A stretch of 64,000 bases of DNA. It comes from Tetrapyrgos nigripes (lineage: Eukaryota; Basidiomycota; Agaricomycetes; Agaricales; Campanellaceae). Numbering within the stretch: position 1 is the first letter of the stretch; each line of letters starts with the position of its first letter. The stretch lies in contig JAACJM010000169.1 of NCBI GenBank assembly GCA_013368315.1, forward strand, positions 62,001 through 126,000. The letters are read 5' to 3'. A program made the position numbers and the translations under genes. The notes under the pieces were generated by a model. That model did no database searches and had not been told where the DNA came from. It saw only the letters and a program-made list of their open reading frames with translations. Positions 5,168-63,524 of the stretch are shown here, piece by piece.

Positions 5168-6683
5168 CGACTTCAGCGTTCACGAAAATATCATAAATAT
5201 AATCTTAATCTTCAGCCACCGAGAGAAAACAATTCATATCTACATGAATTCTCCATCGTTTTCCTTGAATAGTACACCATTTTAAGGCTATGGACTAGCG
5301 TTATAGACTGACCTATATACGTCGATAATATATATTAACTTTGGAATACACAGCCATCAATATTGCTTTTGACTGTTTTTGCTTAATTAAAAATACTTCC
5401 AGTCCTCTAATGCACTGGTCCTATAAATAGGAAATGTAGGCATTACTTCAGGGCACTTTTCTGTGCAAACAAAACAACCTGTTTATGCGTAAAATTCTTT
5501 GTTTTCTTCAAATTTGTCAAAGAAATACATGAAAGGAACATTCACTTAGGACGCTCAAGTCGAGCATCCATACCTCCGCTGTCAGTGGAGCATGCATGCA
5601 TGCATGCACAGAATGCAACGCTGATAGCGGAGCATCCTACAGTCACATAAATCTTACGGACGTTCTGAGCGTCCATAACTTTCACGGACACTAGCTTGCA
5701 TATATATAGCTCCGCTCACAGCGTGAACGCTGAAATCGGTCAAAGACGACTTGAGTGTTCACCGCATTACACAGGATGCTCCGCTGTCAGCGTTGCATTC
5801 TGTATGATGCATGCATGATACAGAGTGCTCCGCTCACAGCGTAGCTAGCATTCTGTGTATGCATGATACAGAATGCTCCGCCATCAGCGTTGCATTCTGT
5901 GTCTGCATGGATGAGAATGAACACGAATGGTATTAAATACATTCAGCTATTCATACATATATAGAATAATGTGGACGCTGTGAGCGTAGTGAACGCTCAC
6001 AGCGTCCCAAACACTCTATCCATAGACATAGTGGCTCATAGATGCTGACAGTCAATCCCTAACCCGATCTTTAGTCAACAATTTTCAAACTCAGCTTGAC
6101 ATGTCTTTCATCCTTTCTCCCATCATCTGTCCGCTCAACATCACCTCAAAGTTGAATTAAACCTGCCTCAAACCCTTCAACCCTTTATGTCCAGTCATTT
6201 TTATCATATTAAAATCCTTTTATATTTTGTCTATATACTTTTTTTATTTTTGGCTGGCGTTGGGTGCAGGAGGCAGCCTTGATCGTAGGGGGGGTGTACC
6301 GGGACATATACGTGATCGTGCGTTGTCCCCATGGACCGATTGCCACACTGCTTCCTTTCCCAAGTTTTCCTACATATTTCTTTCTATTAAAAATCTCCGC
6401 CCCATTATCTTCTAACATTCGTCGCTTTAGCCGTTCAGTCTAGGCATCATCTTTGTGGTTGATTGGCTGTTCAAAAGATTTGGGGAATTTCTTGCAAGTG
6501 TCTTGGACACTCAGATGTGTGAACGTCTTGGACGCTCGGATGTACCAATGGCTGTTAAAAAGATTTGGGGAATTTCTTGCAAGTGTCTTGGACACTTTGA
6601 CACTCGGATGCGTGGACGTCTTGGACGTGTTGATGTGCCGATGTCTTGTACACTCGGATCCATGGATGTCTTAGACGTGCAGA
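5168..6683 (+). repeat. Rep-B, left arm of the large inverted repeat
   Basis: This 1.5-kb segment matches 13301-14848 on the opposite strand almost base for base, including the mononucleotide-rich central part at 6209-6418. It contains palindromic words such as GTGAACGCT with AGCGTTCAC, runs of GCATGCATGCATGC, and, at its inner end (6490-6680), GTGTC-TTG-GACAC type hairpins. Short ORFs inside are found in both arms but look like non-coding sequence. See the findings for the foldback interpretation. Confidence 0.85.
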
Positions 6684-8121
6684 TCCTATGTATAGGTTGG
6701 CTCCCACAATGGACATCAGTGCTTTTTTCAAAGGTCCGCACACTGCTTGTCCCCTGCTCATCCGTTCGTCCTAAAAACTGCAGATACCTGGTCTGCAGGC
6801 CATTATGTCATCTTTTTCAGCGTTGTTTCACGATTATCTCAACAACCGCTGCTCCGTTTCCCTTAAAACTTGAAGATTTGGACTCCTGGGGGTTGATACC
6901 ATATCACTAAGTCCCCAACCCTAACCCCAATCCATGCTCCTCCTGAGAAATCCTTGAAACTTGCTTTCACCGACACCCCGAAATCTATGACCACCTATGG
7001 GTACCAAGACAACAAGCGCCCCGCTGGAGCGGGGCGCCAAAATGTCCACTATGACTCCCCCTAACATATAAGCCAGCCCACAGGTCCATACAATGCGGAA
7101 TTCTCAAACAACGTCTGTGCCTTCAAGTCGTTGCTGATTTTTGCCCCCCCAACCGTCAACCTGGTTTTGTGTCCCATTCCCAGCGGTGCCCACTCCTGGC
7201 GGGGCGTCAGTACATTCTATTTGACAGCAGAAACTTGATGCTGCGCCCCATTACAGCACAGACCCTTTCTTTCACCCATACTCGACCAGTTCGCTCTTTT
7301 CTGTGTCAAAAATGTATCCCTCACGGACTATACCTAGACGACTTACGCGCAGTCTGCATGGGGTGCCAGTATCTTCCATTTCATCTACAGAAACAGGAAA
7401 ACCATCCTGTAGGGCCATGCCTACGAGCCACTTTGACCTGGGCCTTAAAACTCCTCCCAATGCGTATTTTCCCACATGCAGTGAAAGTGGACTTAATGTT
7501 GTTTCTGCTACAGCCAGTCAACCACCCACTAAACATCCTGAATTGACCACCATCTATCCCCCTGCAAAGAGTGGAACAACACAAACTAGAGTTTAGTCAT
7601 TGGTGGAGTAGGGTTTCGGAGGGGAGGCAGCAGTGGCGCAGTCACGTGACCACGCGCCAAGGTATTGGTTTGGCTGCGACAGGTTTATAACATTACATAA
7701 GTGGTCTTGACCCCACACTAGGGTTGAGGCAGCTGACGAGCAAAAAAGTTTAGCTTGCTACATGCAAAAATTCTCAACCAAGTCCATAATTAAATACGTA
7801 TGGCTACAAGATATTGTCTACAACGTAAATGACCACATCAAGTCAAGAACAAACGCACCGAAAACGGGAACAGTATGATGCAATAGGTACTAAAGGAAGA
7901 ACGAGAGGCGGCCACCAGGGAAGATGTTGAAAACAAGTATGTAGAGTAGAGATACAGGAACAGCGAGCATGATTCATTGTATGTATCAGATCCTGGAGAG
8001 ATGTCAGAACCACTAAACCACATAAAAAATCTGAAGACATTACACCTGAAGGACGTTAAAGCCCCTCTGCAAATGTCGTGGTCAGAGTGTGATGGAGCCT
8101 GAGGAAGCAGTAAGACACCTA
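6684..8121 (+). repeat. Rep-A dispersed element, copy 2 (longest with copy 4)
   Basis: It has the same start as copy 1 and continues past the GTAGGGTTTCGG point through GGCAGCAGTGGCGCAGTCAC to GTAAGACACC near 8121, where it diverges from copy 4. It therefore shows Rep-A to be about 1.45-1.6 kb. Relative to copy 1 it lacks about 70 bp between two CTGCAG words near 6780, a deletion probably mediated by that short repeat. No protein function is recognised. Confidence 0.8.
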
Positions 8122-8440
8122 AGGGTTATTGCCTGCCTCACAATGGCCATAGTGGGACTTGTTATAATTGTAGCTGCTACACCTGTACATTGAAGCCAAT
8201 TCAATGTACATCACATGTAACACCTAGTTACATGTGGTGGGAGGTGCAGGAGGAAGAGGGATGTTGTAGGTAGTCTTGGTGGTGGTGGTAGAAGAACAAG
8301 GTACATAACAAATAAGTCATGTATGTACATACATGATGCAACACTTTAGCCGTCACATTCAGAATGCGACGCTTAAAGCGTCCAAATATTTTTGTAATTA
8401 CCAATAAATGTACAACTTGAAAGACATTTAGGCAAAAAAG
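8122..8440. other. No gene seen; simple AT/TG-rich sequence
   Basis: Contains short words such as GGTGGTGGTGG and ATGTACATACATG. The first hairpin-type words (GCGACGCTTAAAGCGTC near 8368) appear here, leading into the following array. Confidence 0.5.
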
Positions 8441-9225
8441 AAAATGTAACTCCTGACGCTCAAGTCGGAGACTGACGACTTGAGCGTCAGAACCAGATTG
8501 TTGGGTCTGACACTCAAGTCAGAGACTGACGCTTTGAGCGTCAGAACCAGATGCGAGAGTCTGACGCTCAAAGTGTCCGCGTCAGGACCAGATGCGAGAG
8601 TCTGACGCTCAAAGTGTCCGCGTCAGGACCAGATGCGAGAGTCTGACGCTCAAAGTGTCCGCGTCAGGACCAGATTCTCGGGTCTGACACTCGAGTCAGA
8701 GACTGACGCTTTGAGCGTCAGAACCAGATGCGAGAGTCTGACGCTCAAAGCGTCCGCATCAGGACTAGATTCTCGGGTCTGATACTTGAGTCAGAGACTG
8801 ACGCTCAAAGCGTCCGCGTCAGGACCAGATTCTCGGGTCTGACACCCAAGTCAGAGACTGACGCTTTGAGCGTCAGAACCAGATGCGAGAGTCTGACGCT
8901 CAAAGCGTCCGCGTCAGGACTAGATTCTCGGGTCTGATACTCGAGTCAGAGACTGATGCTTTGAGCGTCAGAACCAGATGTGAGAGTCTGACACTCAAAG
9001 CGTCAGGTCCAGATTCTCGGGTCTGACACTCGAGTCAGAGACTGACGCTTTGAGCGTCAGAACCAGATGCGAGAGTCTGACGCTCAAAGCGTCCGCGTCA
9101 GGACCAGATTCTCGGGTCTGACACCCAAGTCAGAGACTGATGCTTTGAGCGTCAGAACCAGATGCGAGAGTCTGACGCTCAAAGCGTCAGAACTAGATTC
9201 TCGGGTCTGACACCCAACTTCAAGT
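8440..9225. repeat. Minisatellite array with GACGCT-CAA/TTG-AGCGTC hairpins
   Basis: Units of about 95 bp, plus a 41-bp subunit repeated three times at about 8549-8672, form a tandem array. Each unit carries one or two odd-length palindromes: GACGCTTTGAGCGTC at 8528-8542 (loop TTG), and GACGCT, CAA, AGCGTC at 8895-8909. The words between the palindromes (AACCAGATGCGAGAGTCT, AGATTCTCGGGTCTGACA) are unlike those of the neighbouring arrays. The apparent ORF at 8728-8937 is repeat translation. Confidence 0.9.
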
Positions 9226-9700
9226 CAGAGAAGTGATATTGAACATGCAGTATATGCATCTTGCCTTACTAAATGCACCTTGCTTGACTTTTAGAACCAT
9301 TTGTATATATTCAGAAACCCCTTTACTGGCGCTTCATAACGCACTACTAACCATTGAAAACGAATTAGAGTTGAAGAAGATATTGACAAAACAATGTACT
9401 CATCTGAAATTTCAAGGAAACTTCATAGTAGTCGAACGCGCTGAATCCCATGAAGAAAACAACAAACAATATATAAAATACCCCAGAGTACTATACCGAG
9501 TGTGCTCACTACAGTAGTAATATTTCGACTTGGAAGTATTAATAATACTATTAAGACCATTCACGCGCCTACTCATGTGACCGCTTGAAGTTGTCATTAA
9601 CTCTTCAACTTACGCGTCCAAGTCTCCAAACGCGATCACCCTCCTGAGGCCACTTCTCTAGCTCTAGGCGATCTCTCCGTCCCTGGAGGTGTCCTAGCAA
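9226..9700. other. No gene recognised
   Basis: An AT-rich stretch with a 94-codon ORF at 9233-9517 that resembles no family known to me and has no splice or promoter context. Likely spacer between repeat arrays. Confidence 0.4.
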
Positions 9701-9744
9701 ATTTCAGTGTGCTTCAGGAGGTTTTTATTCGCATTTTTGGGGCT

Positions 9745-10135
9745 TTTTTGCCTACTTTCACATCCTACTATGTTCTCCATCTATTTCTATGCTTCCGGAG
9801 TCGTTTCTGGGGTTATTCAACCCTCCGAATACGATTACAACACTCCCTGGGCCTGTGCCGCCTGCCACATCGTCATTATCCCTTTTGCACAACTTCCACC
9901 ACGGGTACGCATTTTCTCCTCATTTTCTTTCTTTTCTCTGCTTATTCTAACGTTTTTAGACCCTCCAACTCCATCCCCACCCTCGTTAATACCCTCCGGC
10001 TTCGCGTTCTCGCGATATCACCATCCTCTCCTCCTCCTCCCCACTAACTTCACAACTCCTCGCCCCCTGGTCCACCATACGTCACCAAGGATTCGATTCC
10101 AGGGTTATTTAACCCTTCGAACACGATGGGATGGG
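9745..10135 (-). repeat. Inverted fragments of the Rep-C family
   Basis: GGGGTTATTCAACCCTCCGA near 9812 and GGGTTATTTAACCCTTCGAA near 10103 are reverse complements of the AGGGTTGAATAACCCT word repeated at 34700-36250. They mark Rep-C pieces on the minus strand. The pyrimidine-rich ORFs in between are not considered genes. Confidence 0.55.
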
Positions 10136-10159
10136 TTTTTAGACCGTCGGACTGCATCC

Positions 10160-10880
10160 AGCGTGAACGACTTCGTCGTCGTTCACACTATATCTGCTAT
10201 AAATTACTATTGATGTAAGTAAGTACAATAAATTTATAACTTGAAGCCTTCATTCCAGCACAACGCGCAAGTTGTTGCTGGCTGTATCTACGGAATACCG
10301 TCATTCGTCAAGTCTGTGTCTGTTCACATTGATAATTATGACGCTCAGGTCATCGCTGTATTTAGACACACAACCTGAATATCCCCATTTCTTTTTTCAC
10401 TCTCTTTCACTCTCTGTCTATTTCTAAACTTACAGTCTGTATTCCAGCACGACGTCCAAGTCGTTGCTGGTTGTAGCTAGTAGTCGGCAAGTACTTTTCT
10501 TGAAGCTCAAAGCGTCGAGTAAAGTACTTGATCTTACTAGCATGCATCTAGCATCCAGCGTGAATGACTTAGTTGTTCATGCTGTATCTAGGGTTCTAAA
10601 ACAAATTGTATCTACATATAATTTGTGATGACTTAGTCGTCAGCCCGGTTGTGAATATATTCTCCAATGTGCTCCTACATACAACGCGTACCAACCAAGT
10701 CGGCACGAATTGTATGTGGAGGCTGCCTGGAGTACGGTCGACCTGTAAATATACCTATGCCACAATATCACGTTGTGTGTGTAAGAGCATGCACCATCTC
10801 ACATTAGTACATGGAACTCGTACCGACGACCAAGTCGGCACAGTCTCAGAGTGGAGTTCTGACGCTCAAAGCGTCATGAA
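10160..10880. repeat. Scattered hairpin words, non-tandem
   Basis: Includes GTGAACGAC, TTC, GTCGTTCAC (perfect 9-bp stem, 10163-10183). A related wobble form near 10561 has arms GAATGAC and GTTGTTC around TTA. Two related hairpins near 10257 and 10443 have arms CCAGCACAAC/GTTGTTGCTGG and CCAGCACGAC/GTCGTTGCTGG. Each is set in unrelated sequence. No gene recognised. Confidence 0.65.
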
Positions 10881-10980
10881 CTTGACACTCCCCTCAAAGT
10901 ATCTATAAATTTGTGTATACATGTATTACTACTATGTCTTGTAAATACAACTAATTCTACTTTGTAAAATAAGGCACTGA

Positions 10981-11850
10981 TATCCGAACGCTCAAAGTGT
11001 CCGAATGTGCACAGACCACCCAAACGCTCAAAGTGTCCGAATGTGCACAGACCACCCAAACGCTTTTGGGCATCCAGATGTGCACGGACCACATGAACGC
11101 TTTGGGTGTCTTACTTGGTCCGTGTACTGCAGCACCTGGACGCCCAAAGCATTCACGGACACTTTGAGCGTCCAGATGTGCGGACCAAGCAAACGGTCTG
11201 TGCACAGGACATCTGAACGCCCAAAGCGTTCACTAACGCTTTGGGCATACAGATGTGCAAGGACCAACCAAACGCTTTGGCGTTCTGAGTTGGTCCGTGC
11301 ACAGGAAACATCCACACCACATTTGTATGCCCAAAGCGTTCATGGACGTTTTGGGCGTACAGATGTGCATGGACCAAGCAAACACTTTGGGCGTTCTGAC
11401 TTGGTCCATGCACAGGACCACAGGACATCTGAACGCCCAAAGCGTCAGTGAACGCTTTGAGCGTACAGATGTGCATGGACCAACTAAACGCTTTGGGCGT
11501 TCTGGGTTGGTCTGTGCACAGGAAACACCCACACCGCATTTGTACGCCCAAAGCGTTCATGGACGCTTTGGGCGTACAAATGTGCACAGACTAAGCAAAC
11601 GCTTTGGGCGTTCTGACTTGGTCCGTGCACAGGAAACCACAGGACATCTGAACGCCCAAAGCGTCAGTGAACGCTTTGAGCGTACAGATGTGCACGGACC
11701 AACCAAACGCTTTGGGCGTTCTGGTTGGTCCATGCACAGGAAACACCCACACCGCATCTGTACGCCCAAAGCGTTCATGGATGCTTTGGGCGTACAGATG
11801 TGCATGGACCAAGCAAACGCTCTAGGCGTTCTGACTTGGTCTGTGCACCA
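10981..11850. repeat. Tandem array with GAACGC-CCAAA-GCGTTC and CGCTTTGGGCG words
   Basis: Units of roughly 115 bp alternate GAACGCCCAAAGCGTTC (for example 11215-11231) with ATGTGCA(C/T)GGACCAA and ACGCTTTGGGCGTTCTG. The long ORFs on both strands (for example 11255-11923) are only repeat translations. Both strands stay open because the unit is nearly palindromic. Confidence 0.9.
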
Positions 11851-11884
11851 GACATCTTATGTGCTCTTTCACCCAATGAGCATA

Positions 11885-12370
11885 AAAAGCGTGAACGATT
11901 GGTCGTTCATGCAGAATAAATGAGAGTAAAATCGCGTGAACGACCAAGTCGTTCACGCAGATTCATAAGAGAAAAAAGGTGTGAACGACTCAGTCATCCA
12001 CGCAGATAAATGAGGAACAAGGCGTGAACAACCAAGTTGTTCACGCAGAATTAATGAGAAGAAAAAGGCGTGAACAACCGGGTCATTCACACAGAATAAA
12101 TGAGGGTAAAATTGCGTGAACGACCAAGTCGTTCACGCAGATTCATAAGAGAAAAAAGGCGTGAATGAGTTAGTCGTCCATGCAGATGAATGAGGAACAA
12201 GGCGTGAACGACCAAGTCGTTCATGCAGAATTAATGAGAAGAAAAAGGCGTGAACAACCAGGCCGTTCACACAGAATAAATGAGAGTAAAATTGCGTGAA
12301 CGACCAAGTTGTTCACGCAGATTCATGTGAGTAAAAAGGCGTGAACGACCAAGTCGTTCATGCAGATGTA
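11885..12370. repeat. Tandem array of long perfect hairpins, loop CAA
   Basis: About ten units of 45-60 bp. The clearest is GCGTGAACGAC, CAA, GTCGTTCACGC at 11934-11958 (11-bp perfect stem, 3-nt loop). At 12022-12046 the stem is GCGTGAACAAC with GTTGTTCACGC, so both arms changed together. The spacers AGATTCATAAGAGAAAAAAG and AGAATTAATGAGAAGAAAAA are A-rich. Confidence 0.9.
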
Positions 12371-12645
12371 AGTACTCTGCACGCAGCATGGACGACTTGA
12401 GCGTCCAGCTGCGTGTCACTCAAAATCTCAATCCTATCAATATAAGTACTCTGCACGCAGCATGAATGACTTGAGCGTCCAGCTGCGTGTCACTCAAAAT
12501 CTCAATCCTATCAATATAAGTACTCTGCATGCAGCATGAACGACTTGAGTGTCCAGCTGCGTGTCACTCAAAATCTCAATCCTATCAATATAAGTACTCT
12601 GCATGCAGCATGAACGACTTGAGCGTCCAGCTGCGTGTTGGACTC
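12370..12645. repeat. Tandem repeat, period about 75 bp, 3.5 copies
   Basis: The unit starts TAAGTACTCTGCACGCAGCA and contains a nested hairpin. Outer arms CACGCAGC and GCTGCGTG enclose GGACGACTTGAGCGTCC with TTG at its centre. The spacer ACTCAAAATCTCAATCCTAT is conserved between copies. Confidence 0.85.
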
Positions 12646-12719
12646 CAATCTCACAAAAAAAAATACTATCAATGTAAGTCAATGTCAGAAAAAAGTCTGC
12701 AGTAAAAATACAATCAAGG

Positions 12720-13260
12720 TAAGTGCAGACACATCTCTCTCCTGTCTCTCCTCTCCCTCTCCCCTACCCCTCCTCTGCCCAAATCCTCCCCTTCCTCTAC
12801 CCAAACCCTGCCCCTCCCCTGCCCCTCCCCTACCCAAATCCTGCCCCTCTCCTAGGGAAAAACCCTACTCAGACCCTAGAAGTCCCTAGTAACCCTAAGC
12901 GGAGTGGAGGTGGGATGGGGGGATGGCGGGCAACGGAATATCAAGGAATTTGGGGAAGTCTGGGGTGCTATATGGTCGGTTTAATGAGACAAATACGACT
13001 ATAAAAAAATCAGAGCGAACGGACCTCGCGTTCAAAATTTACACCCAATCTAAAGACCCAAAAACCACAAAATGCGCCATATTGAATCCGGACGGGGTTG
13101 GGCAGCTTCAAAAGCATTACCATCGGATTCTGGGAGCTGAATAACGCCAGAAACGAGTCTTGAATAAAGGATTTAGGCGGGAGGGTGAGTCGGAGTGGAG
13201 GTGGTATGGGGGAAAGAGGGGGGATGGCGGATAACAGAATATCAATAGATTTCGGCAAGT
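12720..13260. repeat. C-rich stretch followed by a Rep-C copy
   Basis: 12723-12890 is CCCTCCCC/CCAAACCCTG low-complexity sequence. 12890-13260 shares with 34640-36250 the order GGTGGGATGGGG, then GGGGTGCTATATGGTCG, GCGTTCAAAATTTACA, CATATTGAATCCGGACG, CATTACCATCGGATTC. Rep-C has no recognisable protein; class unknown. Confidence 0.65.
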
Positions 13261-13300
13261 CGTGGGTGTGGACTCACATCTGAGCATCTAAGACATTTAT

Positions 13301-14848
13301 GGATCTGCACGTCTAAGACATCCATGGATCCGAGTGTACAAGACATCGGCACATCAACACGTCCAAGACGTCCACGCATCCGAGTGTCCAAGTGTCCAAG
13401 ACACTTGCAAGAAATTCCCCAAATCTTTTTAACAGCCATTGGTACATCCGAGCGTCCAAGACGTTCACACATCTGAGTGTCCAAGACACTTGCAAGAAAT
13501 TCCCCAAATCTTTTGAACAGCCAATCAACCACAAAGATGATGCCTAGACCGAACGGCTAAAGCGACGAATGTTAGAAGATAATGGGGCGGAGATTTTTAA
13601 TAGAAAGAAATATGTAGGAAAACTTGGGAAAGGAAGCAGTGTGGCAATCGGTCCATGGGGACAACGCACGATCACGTATATGTCCCGGTACACCCCCCCT
13701 ACGATCAAGGCTGCCTCCTGCACCCAACGCCAGCCAAAAATAAAAAAGTATATAGAGGAACAAAATATAAAAGGATTTTAATATGATAAAAATGACTGGA
13801 CATAAAGGGTTGAAGGGTTTGAGGCAGGTTTAATTCAACTTTGAGGTGATGTTGAGCGGACAGATGATGGGAGAAAGGATGAAAGACATGTCAAGCTGAG
13901 TTTGAAAATTGTTGACTAAAGATCGGGTTAGGGATTGACTGTCAGGAGAAAAAGTCACATGTCAGAGAAAAATTTCCCCCTCATGTGACTTTTTGCCAGG
14001 TAGAAGCAAATCACGTCTATGTCGGCATCTATGAGCCACTATGTCTATGGATAGAGTGTTTGGGACGCTGTGAGCGTTCACTCCGCTCACAGCGTCCACA
14101 TTATTCTATATATGTATGAATAGCTGAATGTATTTAATACCATTCGTGTTTATTCTCATCCATGCAGACACAGAATGCAACACTGATGGCGGAGCATTCT
14201 GTATCATGCATACACAGAATGCTAGCTACGCTGTGATCGGAGCATCCTGTGTAATGCGGTGAACACTCAAGTCGTCTTTGACCGACTTCAGCGTTCACGC
14301 TGTGAGCGGAGCTATATATATGCAAGCTAGTGTCCGTGAAAATTATGGACGCTCAGAGCGTCCGTAAGATTTATTTGACTGTAGGATGCTCCGCTATCAG
14401 CGTTGCATTCTGTGCATGCATGCATGCATGCTCCACTGACAGCGGAGGTATGGATGCTCGACTTGAGCGTCCTAAGTGAATGTTCCTCTCATGTATTTTT
14501 TTGACAAATTTGAAGAAAACAAAGAATTTTACGCATAAACAGGTTGTTTTGTTTGCACAGAAAGGTGCCCTGAAGCCATGCCTACATTTCATATTTATAG
14601 GACCAGTGCATTAGAGGACTGGAAGTATTTTTAATTAAGCAAAAACAGTCAAAAGCAATATTGATGACTGTGTATTCAAAGTTAATATATATTATCGACG
14701 TATATAGGTCAGTCTATAACGCTAGTCCATAGCCTTAAAATGGTGTACTATTCAAGGAAAACGATGGAGAATTCATGTAGATATGAATTGTTTTCTCTCG
14801 GTGGCCGAAGATTAAGATTATATTTATGATATTTTCGTGAACGCTGAA
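13301..14848 (-). repeat. Rep-B, right arm of the large inverted repeat
   Basis: Reverse complement of 5168-6683. It carries an extra segment at about 13945-14025 that the left arm lacks. The outer end joins a truncated Rep-A at GAACGCTGAAGTCG/AGAATGTACTGACG near 14850. Relative to the left arm, about 550 bp (4618-5168) is missing at that join. Confidence 0.85.
13949..13994. repeat. Micro-foldback insertion in the Rep-B right arm
   Basis: AAAAAGTCACATG at 13949-13961 is perfectly inverted as CATGTGACTTTTT at 13982-13994, with a 20-nt loop. It lies within an 80-bp segment absent from the otherwise matching left arm, so it is an insertion into this copy. Confidence 0.75.
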
Positions 14849-14849
14849 G

Positions 14850-15446
14850 TCGAGAATGTACTGACGCCCCGCCAGGAGTGGGCGCCGCTGGGAATGGGAC
14901 ACAAAACCAGGTTGACGGTTGGGGGGGCAAAATCAGCAACGACTTGAAGGCACAGACGTTGTTTGAGAATTCCGCATTGTATGGACCTGTGGGCTGGCTT
15001 ATATGTTAGGGGGGGTCATAGTGGACATTTTGGCGCCCCGCTCCAGCGGGGCGCTTGTCGTCTTGGTACCCATAGGTGGTCATAGATTTCGGGGTGTCGG
15101 TGAAAGCAAGTTTCAAGGATTTCTCAGGAGGAGCACGGATTGGGGTTAGGGTTGGGGACTTAGTGATATGGTATCAACCCCCAGGAGTCCGAATCTTCAA
15201 GTTTTAAGGCAAACGGGGCAGCGGTTGTTGAGATAATCGCGAAACGACGCTGAAAAGGATGACATAATGGCCTGCAGACCAGGTACCCCAAAAAGTGCTC
15301 CCCCGGACCTGAGCCCGGAGCGCGCACAGCTTTCGAGGTCTGGGAATCCGAATCTGCAGTTTTTAGGACGAACGGATGAGCAGGGGACGAGCAGTGTGCG
15401 GACCTTTGAAAAAAGCACCGATGTCCATTGTGGGAGCCAACCTATA
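14850..15446 (-). repeat. Rep-A dispersed element, copy 3 (internal truncation)
   Basis: In reverse orientation it runs from the element start near 15446 (GGGAGCCAACCTATACATAG) through the GC palindrome to GGGGCGTCAGTACATTC. It then stops abruptly at the Rep-B junction. It retains the CTGCAG segment that copy 2 lost. Confidence 0.8.
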
Positions 15447-15485
15447 CATAGTTTGTATCCATTCGTCTTATTAACCGTTCTATAG

Positions 15486-20261: not shown

Positions 20262-20866
20262 GATTGTGTTGATGTTATGGTAATTCGAGGTGCAGTTTAT
20301 AACGTTTTATACATGACTGGAGCTGAATTGACCTCAAAGAGCCATAAAAGAACTGACAAAGGATGGAACAAATTCAGCACATCATGTTGAAGAACTGATG
20401 AGAACCCAAGAGCCTGATTATGGATACACCTAGCCGACTACGTGGAGCTCGGTCCTTGAGAAGGAGTCACCTGGAATCTGACTATACCGTATTCAGCGCA
20501 AAGGCTTGAAGCGTGGAAGAACGAAGGAGCCTCATAAAAAGGAGAGTCCAAAAGAAGCACAAGGGGAAATTGGATGTATACTGATGTGGCACAACTCATA
20601 ACCCAAAGAAAAAGGCCCAGCGGTTTACGTTACAAAGGAGTCCGAAGCCTTGAAGAGTATAAAGAACAAGGCAAACTGAATGAAGAGACCCCCTGAATTC
20701 AGTCGCGCTTCACTTCCCGCACGTGACTTTGGTTGGATTCGCTTAATAATAATAACCCGTCTTGATACTTCCTTCTGGCTAGCCGTCACTATCATTCTCA
20801 CATACACTGTCTGGTAAGTGTTCCATAGTCTCTTCTACCCACCTAACTTCAGTTTCTGCACAGAAT
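20262..20866. promoter_or_regulatory. Divergent promoter region with a 5' UTR intron
   Basis: The two genes read outwards from this 600-bp gap. A probable 5' UTR intron lies at 20814-20863 (CTG|GTAAGTG, branch-like CCTAAC, acceptor TTCTGCACAG), three bases before the ATG of the plus-strand gene. No clear TATA box was identified. Confidence 0.5.
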
Positions 20867-26085: not shown

Positions 26086-26400
26086 TCAGAACTCGGAAGT
26101 GACAGCCTTCAGCTGCATACTTCCCTCATCTTGCTCCTCTTCGTCTTCCTCTTCGTCTCCCTCTTCCTCGCCCTCACCACTAATATTACCAAGACCCTCG
26201 CCATCCGCTGAATTCATGACGACGTCGTCAATGATGTCATTCCTAGCGCTTGTGCCTGTAGACGTAGTGACCTCTCCCTGTGAGGTACCGTCTATACTCC
26301 CTTCCACGGTTGCCCCAGTGCCAGCGATGTCAGCGGCGTCGATTTCGGGCTTTCCAGATGCCTTGGATTGAGCGAGCTGGGCTAAAAATTCCTCCGGGTT
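26086..26400 (-). CDS. C-terminal part of an acidic protein, 5' end lost in minisatellite
   Basis: The minus-strand frame ends at TGA 26086-26088 and reads upstream through GEGEEEGDEEEDEEEQDEG, DIIDDVVMNSADGEG and EEFLAQLAQSKASGKPE to about 26400. It stays open beyond that into the CCCAACCCTG-type repeat without an ATG. Codon composition outside the acidic run looks genuine. It is either the last exon of a broken gene or a gene whose 5' part expanded into the repeat. Function unknown. Confidence 0.5.
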   Translation of the reverse strand, partial: NPEEFLAQLAQSKASGKPEIDAADIAGTGATVEGSIDGTSQGEVTTSTGTSARNDIIDDVVMNSADGEGLGNISGEGEEEGDEEEDEEEQDEGSMQLKAVTSEF

Positions 26401-27720: not shown

Positions 27721-27721
27721 G

Positions 27722-28110
27722 TTGGATGTGTCTGTGAATGTCCGAGACATTCACGTCCAAGACGTTCATATACACAGATGCATTGAAATACACATCTGTG
27801 CATGTGAGCGTCCGAGACGTTCACATATACAGGTGCGAAATCTACATCTATGTATGTGAGTGTCCAAGACGTTCATATACACAGATAGATCGACATCTAT
27901 ATGTGAACGTCTTGGACACTCACATACACAGATGGATTGAGATTTACATCTGAGTATGTGAACGTCTTGGACGCTCACATACATGGATGTGTTGATATCT
28001 ATATGTGGGAACCTCAGAGTACATGTGAGCGTCCGAGACGTTCACATACGACATACACAGATGCATCCAGATGTTCTTGACTCGCATCCAAAACGTTTGT
28101 CCAAGACGTT
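27722..28110. repeat. Hairpin array with GTGAACGTC-TTG-GACGCTCAC type units
   Basis: About seven units, 50-70 bp apart, alternate orientation of the same word. Examples: GTGAACGTC, TTG, GACGCTCAC at 27958-27978 (8 of 9 pairs), and GTGAGCGTC, CGA, GACGTTCAC near 28025. The spacers are ATACACAGATG(C/G)ATTGA and variants. Confidence 0.85.
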
Positions 28111-28480
28111 CACACACCAAGTGTTCGTCTCAGTAGATATATGTATAAGTATTTGGATCCCAAGAAATCCCCCAAATCTTTTTAACAAGTAATCAACCAA
28201 ACTCGTTGAAGTCAGAATTCATGGATGACATTAACTATATACCTGCTAAGTATATGTATGGGTTGCCTATCGACTTACACAACTGACAAGCGTCTAGGAC
28301 GATGCCTTCTTGAAGGCCAAGAATCTCAGCTAATAAGTATGCCAAGTCAACTGCTTTTTTTAAGCCTGGGTAATGTTCGCCTCTGAGCAGCCTATCAAGC
28401 ACTGGGGAAAGGGTAAGGACAAAAGTATATTAGGCTAAGTAGCGAAATTACAATGTACATAAATTTCTACTAGTAGTGAT
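28111..28480. other. Spacer between two arrays, no gene
   Basis: Starts with AAATCCCCCAAATCTTTTTAAC, a word shared with the inner end of Rep-B (near 13413). It is otherwise AT-rich unique sequence. Confidence 0.4.
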
Positions 28481-30990
28481 ATAGACTATTGAGAAACAAC
28501 TTTCATTCTTGATTACACGAAGTTGTAGGTACTCTCTGAGTACAGAGAATTCCCTCCAGAGAGTACCTACAGCTGGAGTTGCTCCATGAATTTGTGGAGC
28601 AATCCTTCCAGGAAATTGGTTGTGGGATGTAGTAGCATCTTGGACGCTGGTGCGACGACAAAGTCGATTTTCGATTAATGGAAGGTGTAGACTCTCTCCA
28701 GAAGCAAAGAGAACCTTTAGCTGGAGTTGCTCCACGAATTCGTGGAGCAATCCTTCCGCGAAATTGGTTGTGGTGTGTAGTAGTGTCTTGGACGCTGGTG
28801 CGATGACAAAGTCGATTTTCGATTAATGGAAGGTGTAGACTCTCTCTGGAAGCAAAGAGAACCTTTAGAGCCTGTTCAGCAGCAGTCGGACAGCCGCTCA
28901 GACGTCTGGACAACTCTTGTCCGAACGAGTAACATACCATATATAGTAGCCCAGTAAATAAATAATTTCCGAGCGTGACAGATGCATTTTATCACGATGA
29001 CACTGACTGCAAATGTCAGAGTACGACAACTACGACTATGACTATGAGGAACTACTGGCTTTTCACCGTCAAACCATCTGCTGCAGCATTTGTCGCCCTG
29101 CGACTGTGATCGCAACCATAACCACAACCGGTCATGGTAAAAATAGAGAAGAGACAAGCCACTTGTACTTAGCTGTAAAAAGTTACCAAAAACCCGTCTC
29201 TCACAATGGTGCAAAATAGACTTCACATTCTCAATGGTATGCTACTCAGGTATATACTGAGGAGGTTTTGGAATGAGCAATTGAAGCCCCCTTCTTGTGT
29301 ACTACTGACAATGCTCGTCGCACGATGCGCAGTCACGAAGTGTCACAAAAACCGGTAGTTACCGGACTTGCTTTTATTAGTAAGTAACTCGTCCGGACAA
29401 GAGTTGTCCAGACGTCTGAGCGGCTGTCCGACTGCTGCCGAACAGGCTCTTAGCTGGAGTTGCTCCAGGAATTCGTGGAGCAATCCTTCCGGGAAATTGG
29501 TTGTGGGGTGTAGTAGCATCTTGGACGCTGGTGCGACGACAAAATCGATTTTTGATTAATGGAAGGTGTAGACTCTCTCTGGAAGCAAAGAGAACCTTTA
29601 GCTGGAGCTGCTCCACGAATTTGTGGAGCAATCTTTCCGCGAAGTTGGTTGTGGGGTGTAGTAGCGTCTGGGACGCTGGTGCGACGACAAAGTCGATTTT
29701 GGATTAATTGAATGAGTAGATACTCTCTGGACTCAGAGAGCAGCCCTAAAGCGATTGCTCCTCGCATTCGGAGGGCAATCGTTGAATGATTTTCAGTCGT
29801 GCGTGTGTAGAGCGTCTTGGACGCTGGCGAGATGCAGGAGGCCCATACTTGATTAGATTGAAGGTGTAGGTACTCTTTCAACTGCAGAGTACAGAGAGCA
29901 ACCTCGAAAATGATTGCTCCTCGGATTCGGAGAGCAACCGTTGAACGATTTTTAGTCGTTCGTGTGTAGAGCGTCTCTGACGCTGGCGAGAAGAACGAAG
30001 TACATTCTGGATTAAAAGAAGGCGTAGGTACTCTCTGAGTCCAGAGAGAACCTTCAGCTGGAGCTGCTCCTCGAATTCGTAGAGCAGTCTTTCTGCGAAA
30101 TTGGTTGTGGGGGTGTGTATAGCATCTTGGACGCTGGTGCGACGACAAAGTCGATTTTTGATTAATAGAAGGTGTAGACTCTCCCTGGATGCAGAGAGAA
30201 CCTTTAGCTGGAGCTGCTCCACGAATTCGTGGAGCAATCGTTGAACGATTTTTAGTCGTGCAGGTGTAGAGCGTCTTGGACGCTGGCGAGACGAAGGAGG
30301 CCCATACTTCATTAGATTGAAAGAGTAGGTACTGTCTCAGCTGAAGTTGCTCTCTGGATCCAGAGAGCAGCCTCGAAAGCGATTGCTCCTTGGATTCGGA
30401 GAGCAATCGTTGACCAATTTTTAGTCGCGGGGGTGTGCAGCGTCTTGGACGCTGGTGAGACGAAGGAAGTACATTCTGGATAAAAGAAGATGTATGTACT
30501 CTCTGGAGTAACAGAGAACACTCGAAAAGGAATGCTCCCCGGATTCGGAGAGTATTCGTTACTGGATCTTTAGTCGTGCGGGTGTGGAGCGTCTTGGATG
30601 CTGACACGACGAAGGAAGCCCATTCCTGCTTGAATAAAGTTGTAGTCAGCTGGAGTTGCTCCTCGAATTCGTGGAGCACTCTTTCTGCGATTTTGGTTGG
30701 GGGGTTGTTTAGAAGCGTCTTAGACGCTGGCGTGGCGACAAAGTCAATTTTGGATTAATTAAACGACTAGATACTCTATAGACTCAGAGAGGAGCCTCGA
30801 AAGCGATTGCTCCTCGGATTCGGAGAGCAATCGTTGTGTGTAGAGCGTCTTGGATGCTGGCGAGAAGAAGGAAGTACATTCTGGATTAAAAGAAGGTGTA
30901 GGTACTCTCTGAGTCCAGAGAGAACCTTCAGCTGGAGCTGCTCCACGAATTCGTAGAGCAGTCTTTCCACGAAATTGGTTGTCTAAACAA
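28480..30990. repeat. Large tandem array, unit about 150 bp, with AGCGTC-TTG-GACGCT hairpins
   Basis: About 13 units. Each has an (A)GCGTCTTGGACGCTGG core (perfect at 30270-30284), then GACAAAGTCGATTTT, then GGTGTAG(A/G)TACTCTC. The last part is GAGCTGCTCCACGAATTCGTGGAGC-like, itself a near-perfect palindrome centred on GAATTC. The loop varies (TTG, TCT, TGG, TTA) while the stem stays. The 409-codon minus-strand ORF and others here are repeat translation. Confidence 0.9.
28868..29449. mobile_element. PIF/Harbinger-like MITE, 582 bp, TTA target duplication
   Basis: It interrupts one unit of the tandem array at AACCTTTA/GCTGG. TTA is present on both sides (28865-28867 and 29450-29452). The ends are GAGCCTGTTC and GAACAGGCTC. 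The inverted repeat extends about 56 bp, including GGACAGCCGCTCAGACGTCTGG, written here only in part. A 3-bp TTA duplication is typical of PIF/Harbinger. The interior has no transposase. Confidence 0.85.
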
Positions 30991-31604
30991 AGTACAAGTT
31001 AGCGTAATTCAAGGCATGTTATAGAAGAGGAGGAAGAAGTGGATAATTTCCGACAAATATGCAAAGTGTCGAGGCTACTTTTCCGCTGCTCCAGGGTCGT
31101 CGCTGCATACTCCTTTCCCCTCGACACTGCCGCATATATGAATGGTTGAAGAAACACAGAAGTAATGGTGTGGAGGATAGTAGGGGAACGTACCGTCAAA
31201 GGACATCTGGTGAAGGTAAAATGAAAGAAGCCTACTCAGCAAACGGGCCTATGGGAAACAAGGACCTATAAAGATCAATAGTTGCTCAATACACCGGCCA
31301 AAAGACTAAAAGAGACTTGCCTTGGGTATCCCAAATGGAGCTGGGGGCATTTGAGGCAGGGGAGAGGCGGAAGCACCGTTGGGTGCGGAGATGATGGTGG
31401 TTGCGGAAGAAGAGAGGTAGTGACGTGACCGTCACATTTGAAGGGAGTTTATGGCGGAAAAAAATGAACTTGTCAACGAGATGTTGACGGAATTGGGCAA
31501 GTAGGGAGCTGTATATGATCGGTTTTTCAAGGGGAATACAACGGTGGCAAAATCAAACAACTTCAACCGAAAAGATTGAAGGAAGAAAGGGAAAGGAAAA
31601 GGCA
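30991..31604. other. Leader region upstream of gag, with Rep-C-like sequence
   Basis: 31450-31540 (ATGTTGACGGAATTGGGCAAG, GCTGTATATGATCGG) matches the Rep-C words near 35570 and 36035. The gag ORF's upstream Met therefore lies in repeat sequence. The rest is unrecognised. Confidence 0.4.
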
Positions 31605-33650
31605 ATGGATTCCGATCCCGCAGACCCTGTATCTAGACCGGGGTCCGCTCACTCTCAGCGTTCTCAATCGTCCGAGAACCGTATCAAGGAACAAGCAAAT
31701 AGCCTTTGCTTGAGATACTTCTTACAAATGTTAAGAAATGAAGATCTCACCAATTTTAGTCATTCGAACATACCGGATCAACGGATCCTCGAAACCACAA
31801 GTGGACGGATATACTATGTTAATCAACCGGATTTCCGTATACCCGCACCTCCACCCGACGCAGACCAGATTGCTACATTGAGAGCACTGTATCCGGCCCC
31901 ATTCTCTGAGGAAGATACAGTAAGACAGAACAGCAAATCCAAGAAAAAACAGCGCGCCAGATCCAAGCCATCATGGAACAGATTAGGACGTGGAGCTGCG
32001 ATTAGAGGCCATATGCAGCGGGATAGATACCCTCACATGCATAGGCCACTACGGTCTGATCCTGAATCGTCGGATAATTTTTCCGATAACAACGATTTTA
32101 GTAGAGCGCCCAGATTCGGAAAGGGTAGAAATTTGCCCCACAACCGGAACGGTGGCTCACCGCCATATGGGTCGGATCCATCGGGAAGTGATGGAAATAA
32201 TAGTCTACCTCCATCGTCTCAGGATGACGAGATATTGCTAAATAATAACGATGACTATCCCAAACCCCCAAAACCAGCAGTTTTTGGTAGAACCCGCTAC
32301 TCATCAGTAGACAGAACCTTCAACGAAAGAGAAACATTCTCATATGACCCTACTCCTCGTACTGAAGAGGAAGTAATGAGGGCCTGCTTCAGATCAATTG
32401 AAGAGTTGATCATAAAACAGCTCCACGGGCCGCCGATTGGAGGAAATACCAATGTGCAAAAGATTATTCTACAGTCGATCCCCAAGCCCGGTAAATATAC
32501 TGGTGAAGGCATTGATTTTGTTGCCTTTGATACATGGGTAAGAGATCTCGTACGATGGTTTAACATCGCTGATCTCTGTGGTCCTGAAGTACGCTATAGT
32601 TACAGTCGAAAACAATATGTTCTCACACCTCTAGACATTCAAAGAACAAATGCTACTGGTTCGTTCCTTAAAGGCCCTGCTCATCAGTGGTTCCTTGACG
32701 ATGTGGAACATATCCCAATGGGTAATAGCCCTATGTCTGAGAGAATGACCTTTATGCAGGTCATTTCTGGCTTATACCGACGCTTTCTCCATGAAGCGTC
32801 GCTCTCCAAGATTGGAGAACGTTTTGAAGCGGTGAACTACTCTTCAAATAAGGGTATTAAAGGTGCATTCAGTGCATTAATACGTTATGCTGAACGAATG
32901 CCATCTCCGCCTGACATGTATTCGTTCAAGAAGTGATTACTATTTATTCTACCAGATAATATGCTCTCAGATATGACTAGGATTCATCATATCCGGGCTG
33001 AATCGTCCTCAGTAGATGACATCATGCAAGCTGCACTTGAATGTGAGCGTAGCTGAGAAGCTGATAAATATTATCAGCGTGCCAAAGAAAATATCAAGCG
33101 AGCTAAAAAGCGTCGCTCGCGTTCACGTTCAAAGGAACGTAAATCTAACGCTAAGGACCAACATCGAAACAGATCTCGTTCGGCATCGCCTAGACGTCTC
33201 CAGGTTGTGGATAGACGACGATATAGTGTCAGACCATACTCTAGTATGAATCAAAACGGCAACAATTGGCGTAAGAAATCAGATTCGAGTCCTAACAATG
33301 CCAATCTCCCTACCGGACCAAGAAACTCACGCAACGAGACTCAATCCCCACAACAGCGTCCTGATAAAAAGAATGAATTCAAACCAAATAATCGCTTTTA
33401 TCTGATGGATACTAAGGGGAAAGTATCCCCTCGCATGTATCGTATCGAGGAGATACAAGAACAACTGCCAGCAGAGAATCAGTCTAACCGGGATGAAGAG
33501 AATGCTTCATCTGATAAAGGCGCTTCACATGAACCTGATCCTTGGGGAGGCTCACAGTGGTCAAGTGATGCAGCTGACGAGGACTATATTAACGAAAATA
33601 GTCAAGAGTCGGATGCCTCTGAACGCATAGTATTCATGCGTGAAAAATGA
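31605..33650 (+). pseudogene. Ty3/gypsy gag and nucleocapsid-like region, two internal stops
   Basis: I place the start at ATG 31605 (MDSDPADPVSRPGSAHSQRS). The longer reading from 31515 begins in Rep-C-like repeat. The capsid-like region shows PKPGKYTGEGIDFVAFDTWV, LKGPAHQWFLDD and SGLYRRFLHEA, the usual gag pattern. TGA at 32934-32936 and near 33055 break a frame that continues in phase to a basic RS/KR-rich segment (AKKRRSRSRSKERK) acting as nucleocapsid, then an acidic linker. No CCHC knuckle is seen. Both stops fit CGA to TGA. The frame ends at TGA 33648-33650, with the protease in the +1 frame. Confidence 0.85.
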
Positions 33651-34128
33651 CTCACATTCGGATACGCAAAGTTCCAAATATAATGACAACATACCAACGT
33701 TTGCAGGTATGCGCGAAGTAACTCCGCATGCTTCGGATGATGAAATCGAAATACCTGACCTAGAGTCAGTCGCATCCTCCACGGATTATGAGTCTGATTG
33801 TTCAGACAATGAACAAAATAATCCTGAGGACATAGAGATCCTCGATTTCGGAGAATACCTTCGTTCAATGAGTACATTGGATAATCAAGGTTTCCAAGCT
33901 CACCTGAAACCCAAATTCTCGAAAGACCCCCGTACAGGGGTGCGTCCTCATCGTACTAATGAGGAAAACCGATGCTTGTCTGCATTTGTTGAGTTCAACG
34001 GCCTTCAAGCATTCACACTATTCCATAGCGGCAGTACTGCCGATGCGATCAGCCCAGACTTTGCACGAAATGCAAAATTGAAAATTTATCAACTCGAAAA
34101 CCCTATAACTCTAATGCCCAAGGGAGGG
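33640..34128 (+). pseudogene. Gypsy aspartic protease domain, catalytic Asp lost, 3' truncated
   Basis: After an acidic linker comes LSAFVEFNGLQAFTLFHSGS followed by TADAISPDFARNAKLKIYQL, the retropepsin N-terminal half. The family has D-S-G at the active site; here the codon at about 34023 gives His. The domain ends at MPKGGG near 34128, where a hairpin island begins. The second half of the protease and all of RT are absent. It is joined to gag only through a +1 shift at the UGA. Confidence 0.85.
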
Positions 34129-34600
34129 GGCCACAATGGCCATTGTGCCACTCGTATCACATCGTAGCGTCCACGACGCTACACAAGTGATCCAAGTGCA
34201 TATACATGTCTTCATGGTACACAAACCACTCGCACAGCGTCCGCGACGCTGTGCGAGTGATCCAAGTGACATGTATGAACCAGCTGTGCAGCATTGTGGA
34301 CGCTACGTACCTCTAGTAACCCTAAGAAATACGTGCCTAATGAGAGCTCTGGTAGTGCTAGCGTCCTGGACGCTGCGCAAACACAGTACATGTGTGCAAT
34401 CTCTGCCCCTATGGTTCAACGTGTATATGAGATCATACACAGAAAATAATGTACTAAGACCATATACATAGCGTCCTGGACGCTGTGCAAACTCAGTATG
34501 TGTGTATGATCGATGATCTCTGTCCCTACAGTTCAATATGTATATAAGATTGTACACATAAAAGAATGTACTAATACCATATACCTAGCATCCTGTACAA
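34129..34600. repeat. Hairpin island truncating the gypsy element
   Basis: Begins with GGCCACAATGGCCATTGTG (near-palindrome). Next come TAGCGTC-CAC-GACGCTA and a 15-bp perfect stem around CGC at 34227-34259. Then two AGCGTC-CTG-GACGCT words (near 34360 and 34470) sit in a roughly 110-bp degenerate repeat (CATATACATAGCGTCCTGG, AAAATAATGTACTAA). Confidence 0.85.
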
Positions 34601-34619
34601 CCTAGTCGGAATACACTGT

Positions 34620-36260
34620 ATGTAGATAATTATACAAAACCGAAAAAACGCGAAAAAACGATCATATCGACAGCGGACAACGTGCGAAGGCTTCGAAAAC
34701 ATCACCAACGTGTTCGTAGGGTCGAATAACCCTAGAAAAAAATCTGGGATGATGAAAATCGGGGCAGGGGGTGAGCAGAGGTGGAGGTGGTAGGGGGGAG
34801 GAGGACTGGGTAGCCACATTCACGAAACGGGGTGTTGCACAGCATTACAGTTGGGACCAATGGACTCTTGGGATTGGATAATGTAGGTTCGGGGTAATAG
34901 AACGATATAGGTGGAGAAATGATCGTGGGGGAGGTTTGATTAAAGTAGGAGGAGAGGGCGGTTGGCGGTTGACGGAATGTTGACGGAATGAGATAAGTGA
35001 GGGGTGCTATGGAATCGATTTTGTGAGGAAAACATGAATATATAAAAACAAAAGCGAACGCACTTGGCGTTCAAAAGTTATAGCCTATACAACACCCAAA
35101 AACGCGAAAATCGGCCATATCGGCAGCGGACAACATGCAAAGGCTTCGAAAACATCACCAACGTGTTCGGAGGGTTGAATAACCCTGTAAACGAGTCTGG
35201 GATGAAGAGATTTGGAGCAGGGGATGAGGAGGAGTTGAGTTGACAAGGGGAGGAGGAGCGTGTATCCATATCGACAGCGGACGACGTGCAAAAGCTTCGA
35301 AAACATGACAAACGTGTTCGCAGGGTTGAATACCCCTAGAAAGAGTCCGTGATGAGGAAAATCGAGCCAGGGGATGAGGAGGAGTGGAGGTGGTAAGGGG
35401 AGGAGGACCGGGTAGCCATATTCACAAAACGGGGTGTTGCACAGCGTTACTGTTGGGACCATTAGACTCCCGGGATTGGATAACGTAGGTTTGGGGCAAG
35501 AGAACTTAGTAGGTGGAGAAATGATCGTGGGGGAGGGTTTATTAAAGTAGGAGGAGAGGCGGTTGGCGGTTGACAGAATGTTGACGGAATGAGACAAGTG
35601 AGGGGTGCTATTGGATCGATTTGATGAGTAGAAGACGACTATAATAAAATCAAAGCCCACGCACCTGGCGGTCCAAAGTTATGACCCATCCAAAAATCCC
35701 AAAACCACCAAACAGACCATATCCAATCCGGACGACTTTTGACGGCTTCAAAGACATCACCATCGAATTCAGAGGGTTAAATAACCCTAGAACCGAGTCA
35801 GGAATGAAGAAATATGAGCGGGAGATTGCGGAGGAGTGGAGGTGGTAAGGGGTAGGAGGAGAAGGTATACATAGTTAACAGATATGGCATCGGAGGTCTT
35901 CAGAGTAGACTCCACTGAATTCTAGGTGTCCTAGGAGGGAAATATGGGCGCATGGAGGGACATAGGCGGAGAAATGGGGGTGGTAGAGGGAGTATTAGAC
36001 GGGGAGGAGAGGCGGATGGCAGTTAGTGAAATGTCAAGGGAATTGGCTAAGTCTTGGGTGCTATGGGATCGATTTGATGAGCTGAATGCGAATATTAAAA
36101 GATCCAAGCGAAAATACCTCGCGTTCCAAAGTTACAGCTAATTCAACAATCTCAAAACACGAAAATAGGCCATATCGAATCCGGACAACTTCCGGAGGCT
36201 TCGAAAACATTACCATCGTATTCTTAGGGTCAAATAACCCTAGAATCAAGTCCTAGAGGA
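34620..36260. repeat. Rep-C family, at least three adjacent copies
   Basis: Shared order of words: GCGAAAATCGGCCATATCG, GACAACGTGCAAAGGCTTCG, AAAACATCACCAACGTGTTC, GGGTTGAATAACCCT, GAGTCTGGGATGAAGA, GAGGAGTGGAGGTGGTAAGG. These recur at about 34650, 35100, 35270 and 36150, with a more diverged copy at 35690. A related copy lies at 12890. ORFs on the minus strand (for example 35085-35660) are repeat translation. No target duplication or protein domain is seen. Confidence 0.75.
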
Positions 36261-36389
36261 CAATATTTCAGCGGGAGGATGAGGAGGAGTTCATTTGGAT
36301 TTTGGTATGAGGAGGAGTAGGGCGGGTGGGTCCACAGGGACAACGGGTGTGATTGAGGATTTGAGAGTGGTTTAACCAAATTATAAAGA

Positions 36390-36740
36390 CCCTAAAATGA
36401 AGTATTACATCCAGGCAGAGGGAACAGTGGAGAGGAAAGACTCACAAATGAAGGCGTTGTGGTGGTTAAGTAGAAAGAAAGGTCAATGATGTCATCAACG
36501 CCGTGAGCATTAACGACAGTGAACAAGTTGTACTGCATGAATGACTTGGTCGGGACATGGATGCATCTACATTGTACTACTAAGGCGGAATGTAGATGGA
36601 TGCACGTTGAGACCGAGTCTATGTATAGCATCCTGAGCGCATAGTCGATTGTCACTCGGTGTCCGTAGCGTCCTGGACGCTTGCTGGACGCTATGCGAAT
36701 GCTTGGTGCACTAGGTGTAAGTCGGAGGCTAAATGATCCC
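36390..36740 (-). repeat. LTR-like fragment plus hairpin words
   Basis: On the minus strand the sequence at 36420-36390 reads CTGGATGTAATACTTCATTT, like the start of the putative LTR at 2140. Around 36660 the word AGCGTC, CTG, GACGCT occurs once more, followed by a partial second copy. No gene. Confidence 0.45.
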
Positions 36741-63520: not shown

Positions 63521-63524
63521 CCCT

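Follow-up and report, generated by a model that had tools for sequence, protein, structure and literature searches.

The window considered here, a stretch of 64,000 nucleotides from the agaric mushroom Tetrapyrgos nigripes (C165:62001-126000, in a genome of 98.46 Mb on 587 contigs), carries many tandem repeats that are unrelated in sequence and that have one short element in common. The description that fits this element best is that of an 11-bp box, CG-N-Y-CAA-R-N-CG, which has partial dyad symmetry, CpGs at its borders and a fixed asymmetric centre, rather than that of a stem closed by any loop whatever. This raises the question of why repeats of no other likeness carry it. The answer favoured here, tentatively and short of calling it probable, is that the box is the dyad binding site of a putative chromosome-end protein, situated on repeats that would have been spread by unequal exchange and by duplication between chromosome ends; it may instead be a hairpin that founds the repeats, or serve in both ways.

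One box in different repeat families

Sites of the form CG-N7-CG were clustered by the identity of their flanks, so that each array weighs about once, and the clusters are called contexts. The background is made up of the window between 40 and 63 kb and of sequence on either side of ten chance matches to the pattern, whose middle ~115 bases were excluded. Subtelomeric loci outside the window were chosen through arm words whose centre could be anything, or because they lie near sites found in that way. From this follows that the arms of the box are biased by the choice of loci, while its centres are not. The centre is CAA or TTG in 23 of 112 contexts in subtelomere-type DNA, but only in 2 of 165 contexts in the background (Fisher p 2.7e-8).

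The extended form of the box covers 11-15 bp, (G)A-CG-N-Y-CAA-R-N-CG-T, with its CpG half-sites 7 bp apart. Among the 23 contexts, position -1 is A in 18, the base before CAA is Y and the base after it R in all, and T follows the last CG in 16. The left halves are CGCT, CGTC, CGCC, CGAC and CGGC, and the right halves, reversed, are CGCT, CGAC, CGTC and, once, CGAT. The halves CGCT, CGCC, CGTC and CGAC combine, and 105 of 192 box instances are symmetric. Both inner pairs match in 12 of the 23 contexts, against 6.1 expected (p 0.002); one inner pair is lost in 5 and both in 6, with CG, CAA and spacing retained. Past the base that adjoins the box the outer dyad is weak (p 0.011 at offset 7, p 0.10-0.60 at offsets 8-12), and beyond 3 bp of the box the consensus is at most 0.27 bit per position. 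This bears out the first-pass annotation of the window, which had claimed that a short motif is all that the different repeat families have in common.

The motif also stands well above chance, as had been supposed. In the window, ACGNNCAANNCGT occurs 34 times when 0.32 are expected, and none of 100 shuffles reaches 34; relaxed boxes, in which at least one CG is kept, number 93 between 4 and 37 kb and 4 between 40 and 63 kb. In the genome, the long forms lie far above their reversed controls, with 267 against 4 for GACGCTNNNAGCGTC, 428 against 3 for AGCGTCNNNGACGCT and 69 against 0 for GAACGACNNNGTCGTTC. For ACGNNTTGNNCGT the count on both strands is 1683 against 704, and the short form ACGACNNNGTCGT hardly exceeds its control (218 against 176). 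The proposed preference for CAA or TTG in the loop holds for two kinds of arm, GAACGAC with 67 of 69 sites and GACGCT with 41 of the 50 sites listed out of 267 (hand count; 24 of the 50 belong to one array). It does not hold for AGCGTC, where a hand count of the 50 sites listed out of 428 gives CAA or TTG 16 times and CAG or CTG 14 times.

Eight of the nine palindromes listed in the first-pass annotation read as given, namely those at 6497, 8528, 8895, 11934, 13389, 27958 and 30270, together with AGCGTC-CTG-GACGCT, which lies at 34360, 34470 and 36667. The ninth, at 10163-10183, had been assigned a TTC centre; the actual bases are GTGAACGACTTCGTCGTCGTT, and the palindrome is GTGAACGAC-TTCGTC-GTCGTTCAC, with a 6-nt spacer. 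Distinct repeat families do exist, but the independence of the ten or more blocks was overstated, since two pairs are related: 6497 and 13389 lie within one inverted duplication (6045-6686 against 13301-13945, 98.9%), and the sites at 8528 and 8895 come from units of a single array. As to the 3-nt centre, taken to be a signature, spacer 3 is enriched, but so are other spacers, and it accounts for 10 of 56 palindrome families.

Subtelomere-type setting and behaviour of the arrays

The boxes appear to be set in subtelomere-type DNA that is duplicated between contigs, an assignment made by a telomere for a few contigs and probable for the rest. Among the loci compared are L051 on C22, L052 on C51, L053 on C89, L026 on C195 and L055 near the C5 telomere. 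The segment 33024..36201 (forward strand) has 98% identity to the final 3.1 kb of C5, directly abutting (TTAGGG)n, and this ties the DNA type of the window to a chromosome end. Telomere repeat terminates three fetched contigs, C5, C89 and C195, and the box 17-mer GAACGACCAAGTCGTTC is present on all three, at 69 kb from the contig end on C89 and at 19-26 kb on C195. The C5 match and the 17-mer on TTAGGG-ended contigs thus place the boxes between chromosome-arm DNA and telomere repeat. On C5, box or arm-word sites span 1082-1273 kb and the telomere begins at 1274.6 kb; among the matches listed, ACGNNTTGNNCGT has 3 sites within the first 1.08 Mb and 51 in 1082-1136 kb.

In the whole genome, the GAACGACCAAGTCGTTC sites (67 of 67) are confined to 27 of the 587 contigs, with none on C1-C4 or C6-C21. 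The repeat (TTAGGG)4 is found on 13 contigs, 7 of which have the 17-mer, and is internal in some (C6, C383, C402). Most contigs that carry the box, the window's own included, are without a telomere in view, and there the DNA is presumably subtelomeric. At L057 (C402:41001-44300), the same telomere-associated repeat stands on both sides of a TTAGGG tract, which may be an interstitial telomere or an assembly join.

Segments of high identity are duplicated between ends. The non-tandem part at 9217..9700 (forward strand) is found on 14 contigs, that of the window included, in 11 cases near-complete at 95-100% and in 3 partial (C195, C140, C259), and 19 alignments of the window to other loci have identities of 92-99%. 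Because subtelomere-type DNA, a setting that the first-pass annotation did not recognise, is copied between contigs, many arrays stand together. The region from 8.4 to 12.7 kb is mostly a run of tandem arrays, and its observed-to-expected CpG ratio is 0.96, against 0.79 at 4-37 kb and 0.76 at 40-63 kb.

The arrays also differ in copy number. The stretch of the window that holds arrays c to g (described below) is found again on C22 (L051), and C51 (L052) has array c together with its right neighbour; the numbers of units differ, and indels of unit number are seen between contigs. Other box arrays are a 28-bp array of ~57 copies at C89 (L053) and units of 28, 47 and 75 bp at C51 (L052). Whole palindromes are gained or lost exactly: one of 25 bp, at position 10846 of the window, is present in the window and in L051 and absent in L026, and one unit of L050 is without 18 bp spanning the box. 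For nematodes it has been proposed that such a motif marks segment breakpoints; here, the two breakpoints read by eye where the window departs from L051/L052 (near 8176 and near 10152) do not coincide with boxes. Between copies, CpG sites differ ~3.2 times as often as other sites (230/3966 against 828/45459), as would be expected under CpG methylation. Within arrays, the mean of six copy sets gives a variation of 0.105 for arms and 0.219 for spacers, and of 0.198 for box CpGs and 0.284 for spacer CpGs. These values lean towards constraint, but several copy sets are out of register, and the comparison between duplicated copies, which is preferred here, shows none.

From left to right in the window, a single box with asymmetric halves, ACGCTCAAGTCGT, lies at 5148..5160 (forward strand), and a large palindrome with 15-bp arms and without a CAA centre, GGACGCTGTGAGCGT-AGTGA-ACGCTCACAGCGTCC, at 5973..6007. 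The box cluster at 6490..6680 is partly CpG-decayed (AGTGTC-TTG-GACACT, ACGTCTTGGACGT) and has its inverted duplicate at 13301..13490. In array c (8453..9217), the boxes are spaced by 35/41/54/60 bp and read GACGCT-CAA-AGCGTC in either orientation. Block d (10140..10900) holds dispersed, non-tandem boxes and box-like palindromes, of which the one at ~10859-10883 is missing at the same place on C195 (L026). Array e (10987..11848) has periods of 36 and 110 bp and box spacings of 19/36/51-58; its boxes are mostly ACGCCCAAAGCGT, with halves CGCC/CGCT and one inner pair lost. It is followed by array f (11875..12368, forward strand), which has a period of ~46 bp and carries GCGTGAACGAC-CAA-GTCGTTCACGC and decayed copies, and by array g (12369..12638), with a period of 74 bp and the asymmetric box AACGAC-TTG-AGCGTC.

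Farther to the right, block i (27754..28110) consists of ~52-bp repeats with boxes of the GTGAACGTC-TTG-GACGCTCAC type, and array j, in two parts (28560..28868 and 29450..30982), of 148-bp units with the AGCGTC-TTG-GACGCT type and TTGCTCCACGAATTCGTGGAGCAA palindromes. The repeats of block k (34160..34600) contain AGCGTC-(CAC, CGC, CTG)-GACGCT, that is, the arms of the box around a centre that is not CAA, and a single AGCGTC-CTG-GACGCT lies at 36667..36681 (forward strand). Distances from box to box, in the window and in L050-L054, are often ~19, 28, 35-36, 45-47, 54-56, 74-75, 92-93 or 148-149 bp, among other values, which may point to a periodicity. A GC-rich 149-bp array at L058 (C383) has a unit with ACGTCTTGCTCGGG, which is CG-N7-CG with a TTG centre and without the dyad; L026 and L028 have 13-bp tandem units of a different palindromic word, TTGGTCGACCAA; and an 11-bp tandem array with consensus CTTGAGTGTTG and ~38 copies occupies 63523-63934.

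Mobile elements lie near the arrays. A multicopy family, T (92 match rows), is found at 4025-5029, 6686-8119, 14854-15451 (reverse strand) and 38044-39631 (reverse strand). Its terminus is sharp (CTATRYATAGGTTRGCTCCCAC; CTATRYATAGGTTRGCTCCCACAATGG) and joined to many different flanks; at L009, near 1340, it immediately adjoins an arm of a box palindrome, with GACGCTTTGAGCGT joined to CTATG. The region 4025-15451 is bounded outside by TTTGT at both ends. A Plavaka transposase remnant is encoded at 40016-40591 (PF18759, E 2.8e-28), and Gag/protease-like open reading frames at 31515-34167 end just before block k (RVP_2 is below cut-off for 33640-34164), an arrangement that recurs 2-3 kb from the C5 telomere (L055). 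The window further encodes a GH3 protein that is 100% identical to a Tetrapyrgos nigripes protein, the next-best match being from Dendrothele bispora at 74%.

A proposed binding site and its rivals

Consider a dimeric or bipartite protein that binds the duplex of the box and marks subtelomeric chromatin. The arrays would then offer such a protein redundant places to land, in the service of silencing, of clustering of the ends or of tethering, and its binding would be the reason why box-bearing sequence is retained. Unequal exchange or slippage would amplify box-bearing short repeats again and again, and entire segments would be copied from one chromosome end to another, while the potential to form hairpins would follow from the dyad of the binding site. 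A protein that binds the duplex is preferred because CG, CAA and their spacing persist where the stem has been weakened or lost. The fixed CAA, too, would be explained if duplex recognition needs it, whereas a free hairpin loop offers no reason for it.

A close second, rated only a little below the binding site, is selfish amplification driven by the hairpin itself. On this reading palindromes would stall replication, template switching and slippage would found the arrays, and the box, serving no host function, would be the most successful founder word. The folding calculations bear directly on this choice. The 23 contexts fold as DNA at a mean of -3.44 kcal/mol, against -2.13 with permuted right halves, and none of 400 permutations reaches the real mean, so that stem matching exceeds what chance would give from the pool of halves. 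Folds at or below -4 occur in 10 of 23 box contexts, in 4 of 165 in the background and, among the remaining contexts of subtelomere-type DNA, in 15 of 89. For symmetric boxes the values are -5.0 to -5.2; the CpG-decayed AGTGTCTTGGACACT folds at -3.5, and the form of array e, GAACGCCCAAAGCGTTC (CGCC/CGCT), at -5.4 despite one lost pair. These numbers suit a hairpin, as do the exact presence and absence of whole palindromes at microhomology (the 25 bp at 10846, the 18 bp of L050), the excess of palindromes over many spacers and the fact that purifying selection on the box is not visible. What speaks against it is that CAA and the distance from CG to CG are kept in the six contexts where neither inner pair remains and where the folds range from 0.0 to -3.2; an inner-mismatch box, GACGCTCAAGTCGTC, folds at -1.4. 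The hairpin design proposed in the first-pass annotation therefore stands as a potential above expectation; that it is the thing conserved is not supported, since one or both inner pairs are gone from 11 of the 23 contexts and the full stem survives in the other 12, wobble-type and A-C-type losses are in balance, and duplicated copies show no constraint on the box. Compensatory maintenance of the hairpin was considered and rejected. A raw count of 19 complementary against 4 non-complementary double CpG losses shrinks to 5 against 4 once the losses are counted as events, 15 of the instances being of one L053 unit type, and in this small sample the losses are not compensatory beyond chance.

Descent of all blocks from one ancestral subtelomeric repeat, with diverged spacers and the box as a relic, is unlikely. 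Segments are indeed duplicated between contigs, and the flank bases GTGAAC/GTTCAC around the box are, by eye, common to blocks d, f, g and i; but the consensus fades within 3 bp of the box, periods such as 28, 46, 74, 110 and 148 go with differing unit sequences, and under neutral decay the box should lose its CpGs before its other bases (5.8% of CpG sites changed, 1.8% of other sites). An origin of the boxes in a DNA transposon of the Plavaka/CACTA, KDZ or Helentron type, as subterminal transposase-binding repeats or as satellite cores, is improbable. The T family is frequent here, 4025-15451 has a T terminus at each outer end and encloses arrays c-g, and a Plavaka remnant lies at 40016-40591. 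Yet array c is without T flanks at C22 (L051, including d to g) and at C51 (L052), with 5 kb read at each, and T meets the array segment at differing points (L009, L026); arrays bounded by terminal inverted repeats at every locus are thus not what is found. Least probable of all is silencing directed by hairpin small RNAs to which the arrays would give rise by transcription. Hairpin potential and long inverted duplications would favour this, but the window has no Rfam match at gathering cut-offs, 11 of the 23 contexts are short of one or both inner pairs, and wobble-type losses do not outnumber those of A-C type (65 and 67, a weak test, as the transcript strand is not fixed).

Several observations weigh against the binding site as well. 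No protein that binds the box has been identified. The main weaknesses of this reading are the significant stem matching and the absence of constraint among duplicated copies, where the box changes at the pace of its surroundings both at non-CpG sites (18/699 against 828/45459) and at CpG sites (27/406 against 230/3966); either redundancy of the arrays could hide weak selection, or no selection exists. When perfect palindromes are counted that have arms of 8 or more and spacers of 0-12, subtelomere-type DNA has 56 families in 62.5 kb and the background 12 in 52 kb, and the enrichment of other spacers, together with the stem matching, is not explained by a single protein site. The 7-bp gap between CGs is the most frequent one in subtelomere-type DNA (112 contexts, against 64-103 for other gaps from 2 to 19), but it is the commonest in the background too (165 against 76-164), so that the gap alone is weak evidence. 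Finally, no box occurs within the terminal 3 kb at the ends of C195 and C89, and the palindromes near the C5 telomere (block k) combine box arms with CAC, CGC or CTG centres.

The binding-site reading has a bolder and rather doubtful form, in which one putative protein, perhaps a domesticated transposase, both nucleates subtelomeric heterochromatin and provokes local tandem duplication, giving a self-seeding subtelomere. If this were true, any sequence that gains a box beside a chromosome end would become an array, and the repeats would be refounded by a protein-binding word instead of being inherited.

Known systems with a common short motif

The first-pass annotation knew of no described system with such a signature, but SPE2/PfSIP2 and satellites with a CENP-B-box-like motif are similar. 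In the human CENP-B box, with essential bases NTTCGNNNNANNCGGGN, a gap of 7 bp separates two CpGs and an inner position is A, and the box of T. nigripes is like it in this gap and in the same inner A. It does not belong to the CENP-B boxes, as five of nine essential bases (C, G, A, C, G) fit its consensus and the outer TT and GG do not, and CENP-B boxes are not enriched in the window (5 matches with at most one mismatch, 8.8 expected). The genome has 41 matches to HTH_Tnp_Tc5 (PF03221), the helix-turn-helix domain type of CENP-B. The pairing-centre motifs of C. elegans, bound by the ZIM/HIM-8 zinc fingers, are likewise short and clustered near chromosome ends; there they serve in meiotic pairing.

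A published description of the box itself was not found among titles and abstract openings, nor in the portions used of two Marasmius oreades papers (PMC8290104, PMC9674265). Agaricus bisporus var. burnettii is, like T. nigripes, an agaric with polymorphic chromosome ends; its subtelomeres have RecQ-like helicase genes, and the portion of the description used here mentions no common short box (PMC7473861). In Meloidogyne, according to the parts of the reports used, a CENP-B-box-like motif is kept in 11 divergent satellite DNAs with identities of 36-74%, and it has been proposed to promote rearrangement of the arrays (PMC3694981, PMC9673304). There, as here, one short motif is found in divergent repeats, but the box of T. 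nigripes is of subtelomere type and partly palindromic. For SPE2/PfSIP2 of Plasmodium falciparum, the portion of the report drawn upon gives 777 predicted sites, 94% of them in subtelomeric domains, for a short motif in two parts, whose clusters form arrays within telomere-associated repeats that do not code for protein; SPE2 has its ApiAP2 protein, and sequence and phylum differ from those of the box (PMC2829057). The T. nigripes box, too, is a two-part motif concentrated in subtelomeric arrays relative to the genome, on contigs partly tied to telomeres, but unlike SPE2 it is partly dyad-symmetric, with CpG half-sites. A landmark of the SPE2/PfSIP2 kind would further be expected to be bound by a tandem ApiAP2 protein together with HP1.

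To our knowledge, CENP-B and SPE2 are the cases in which the reader of a box common to different repeats is known. The fungal case adds about two dozen independent contexts and a precise consensus, and thereby makes selection for binding testable against mutational seeding by palindromes. While on present evidence it is a member of neither system, the box appears to work like SPE2/PfSIP2 or like the satellite motif of Meloidogyne.

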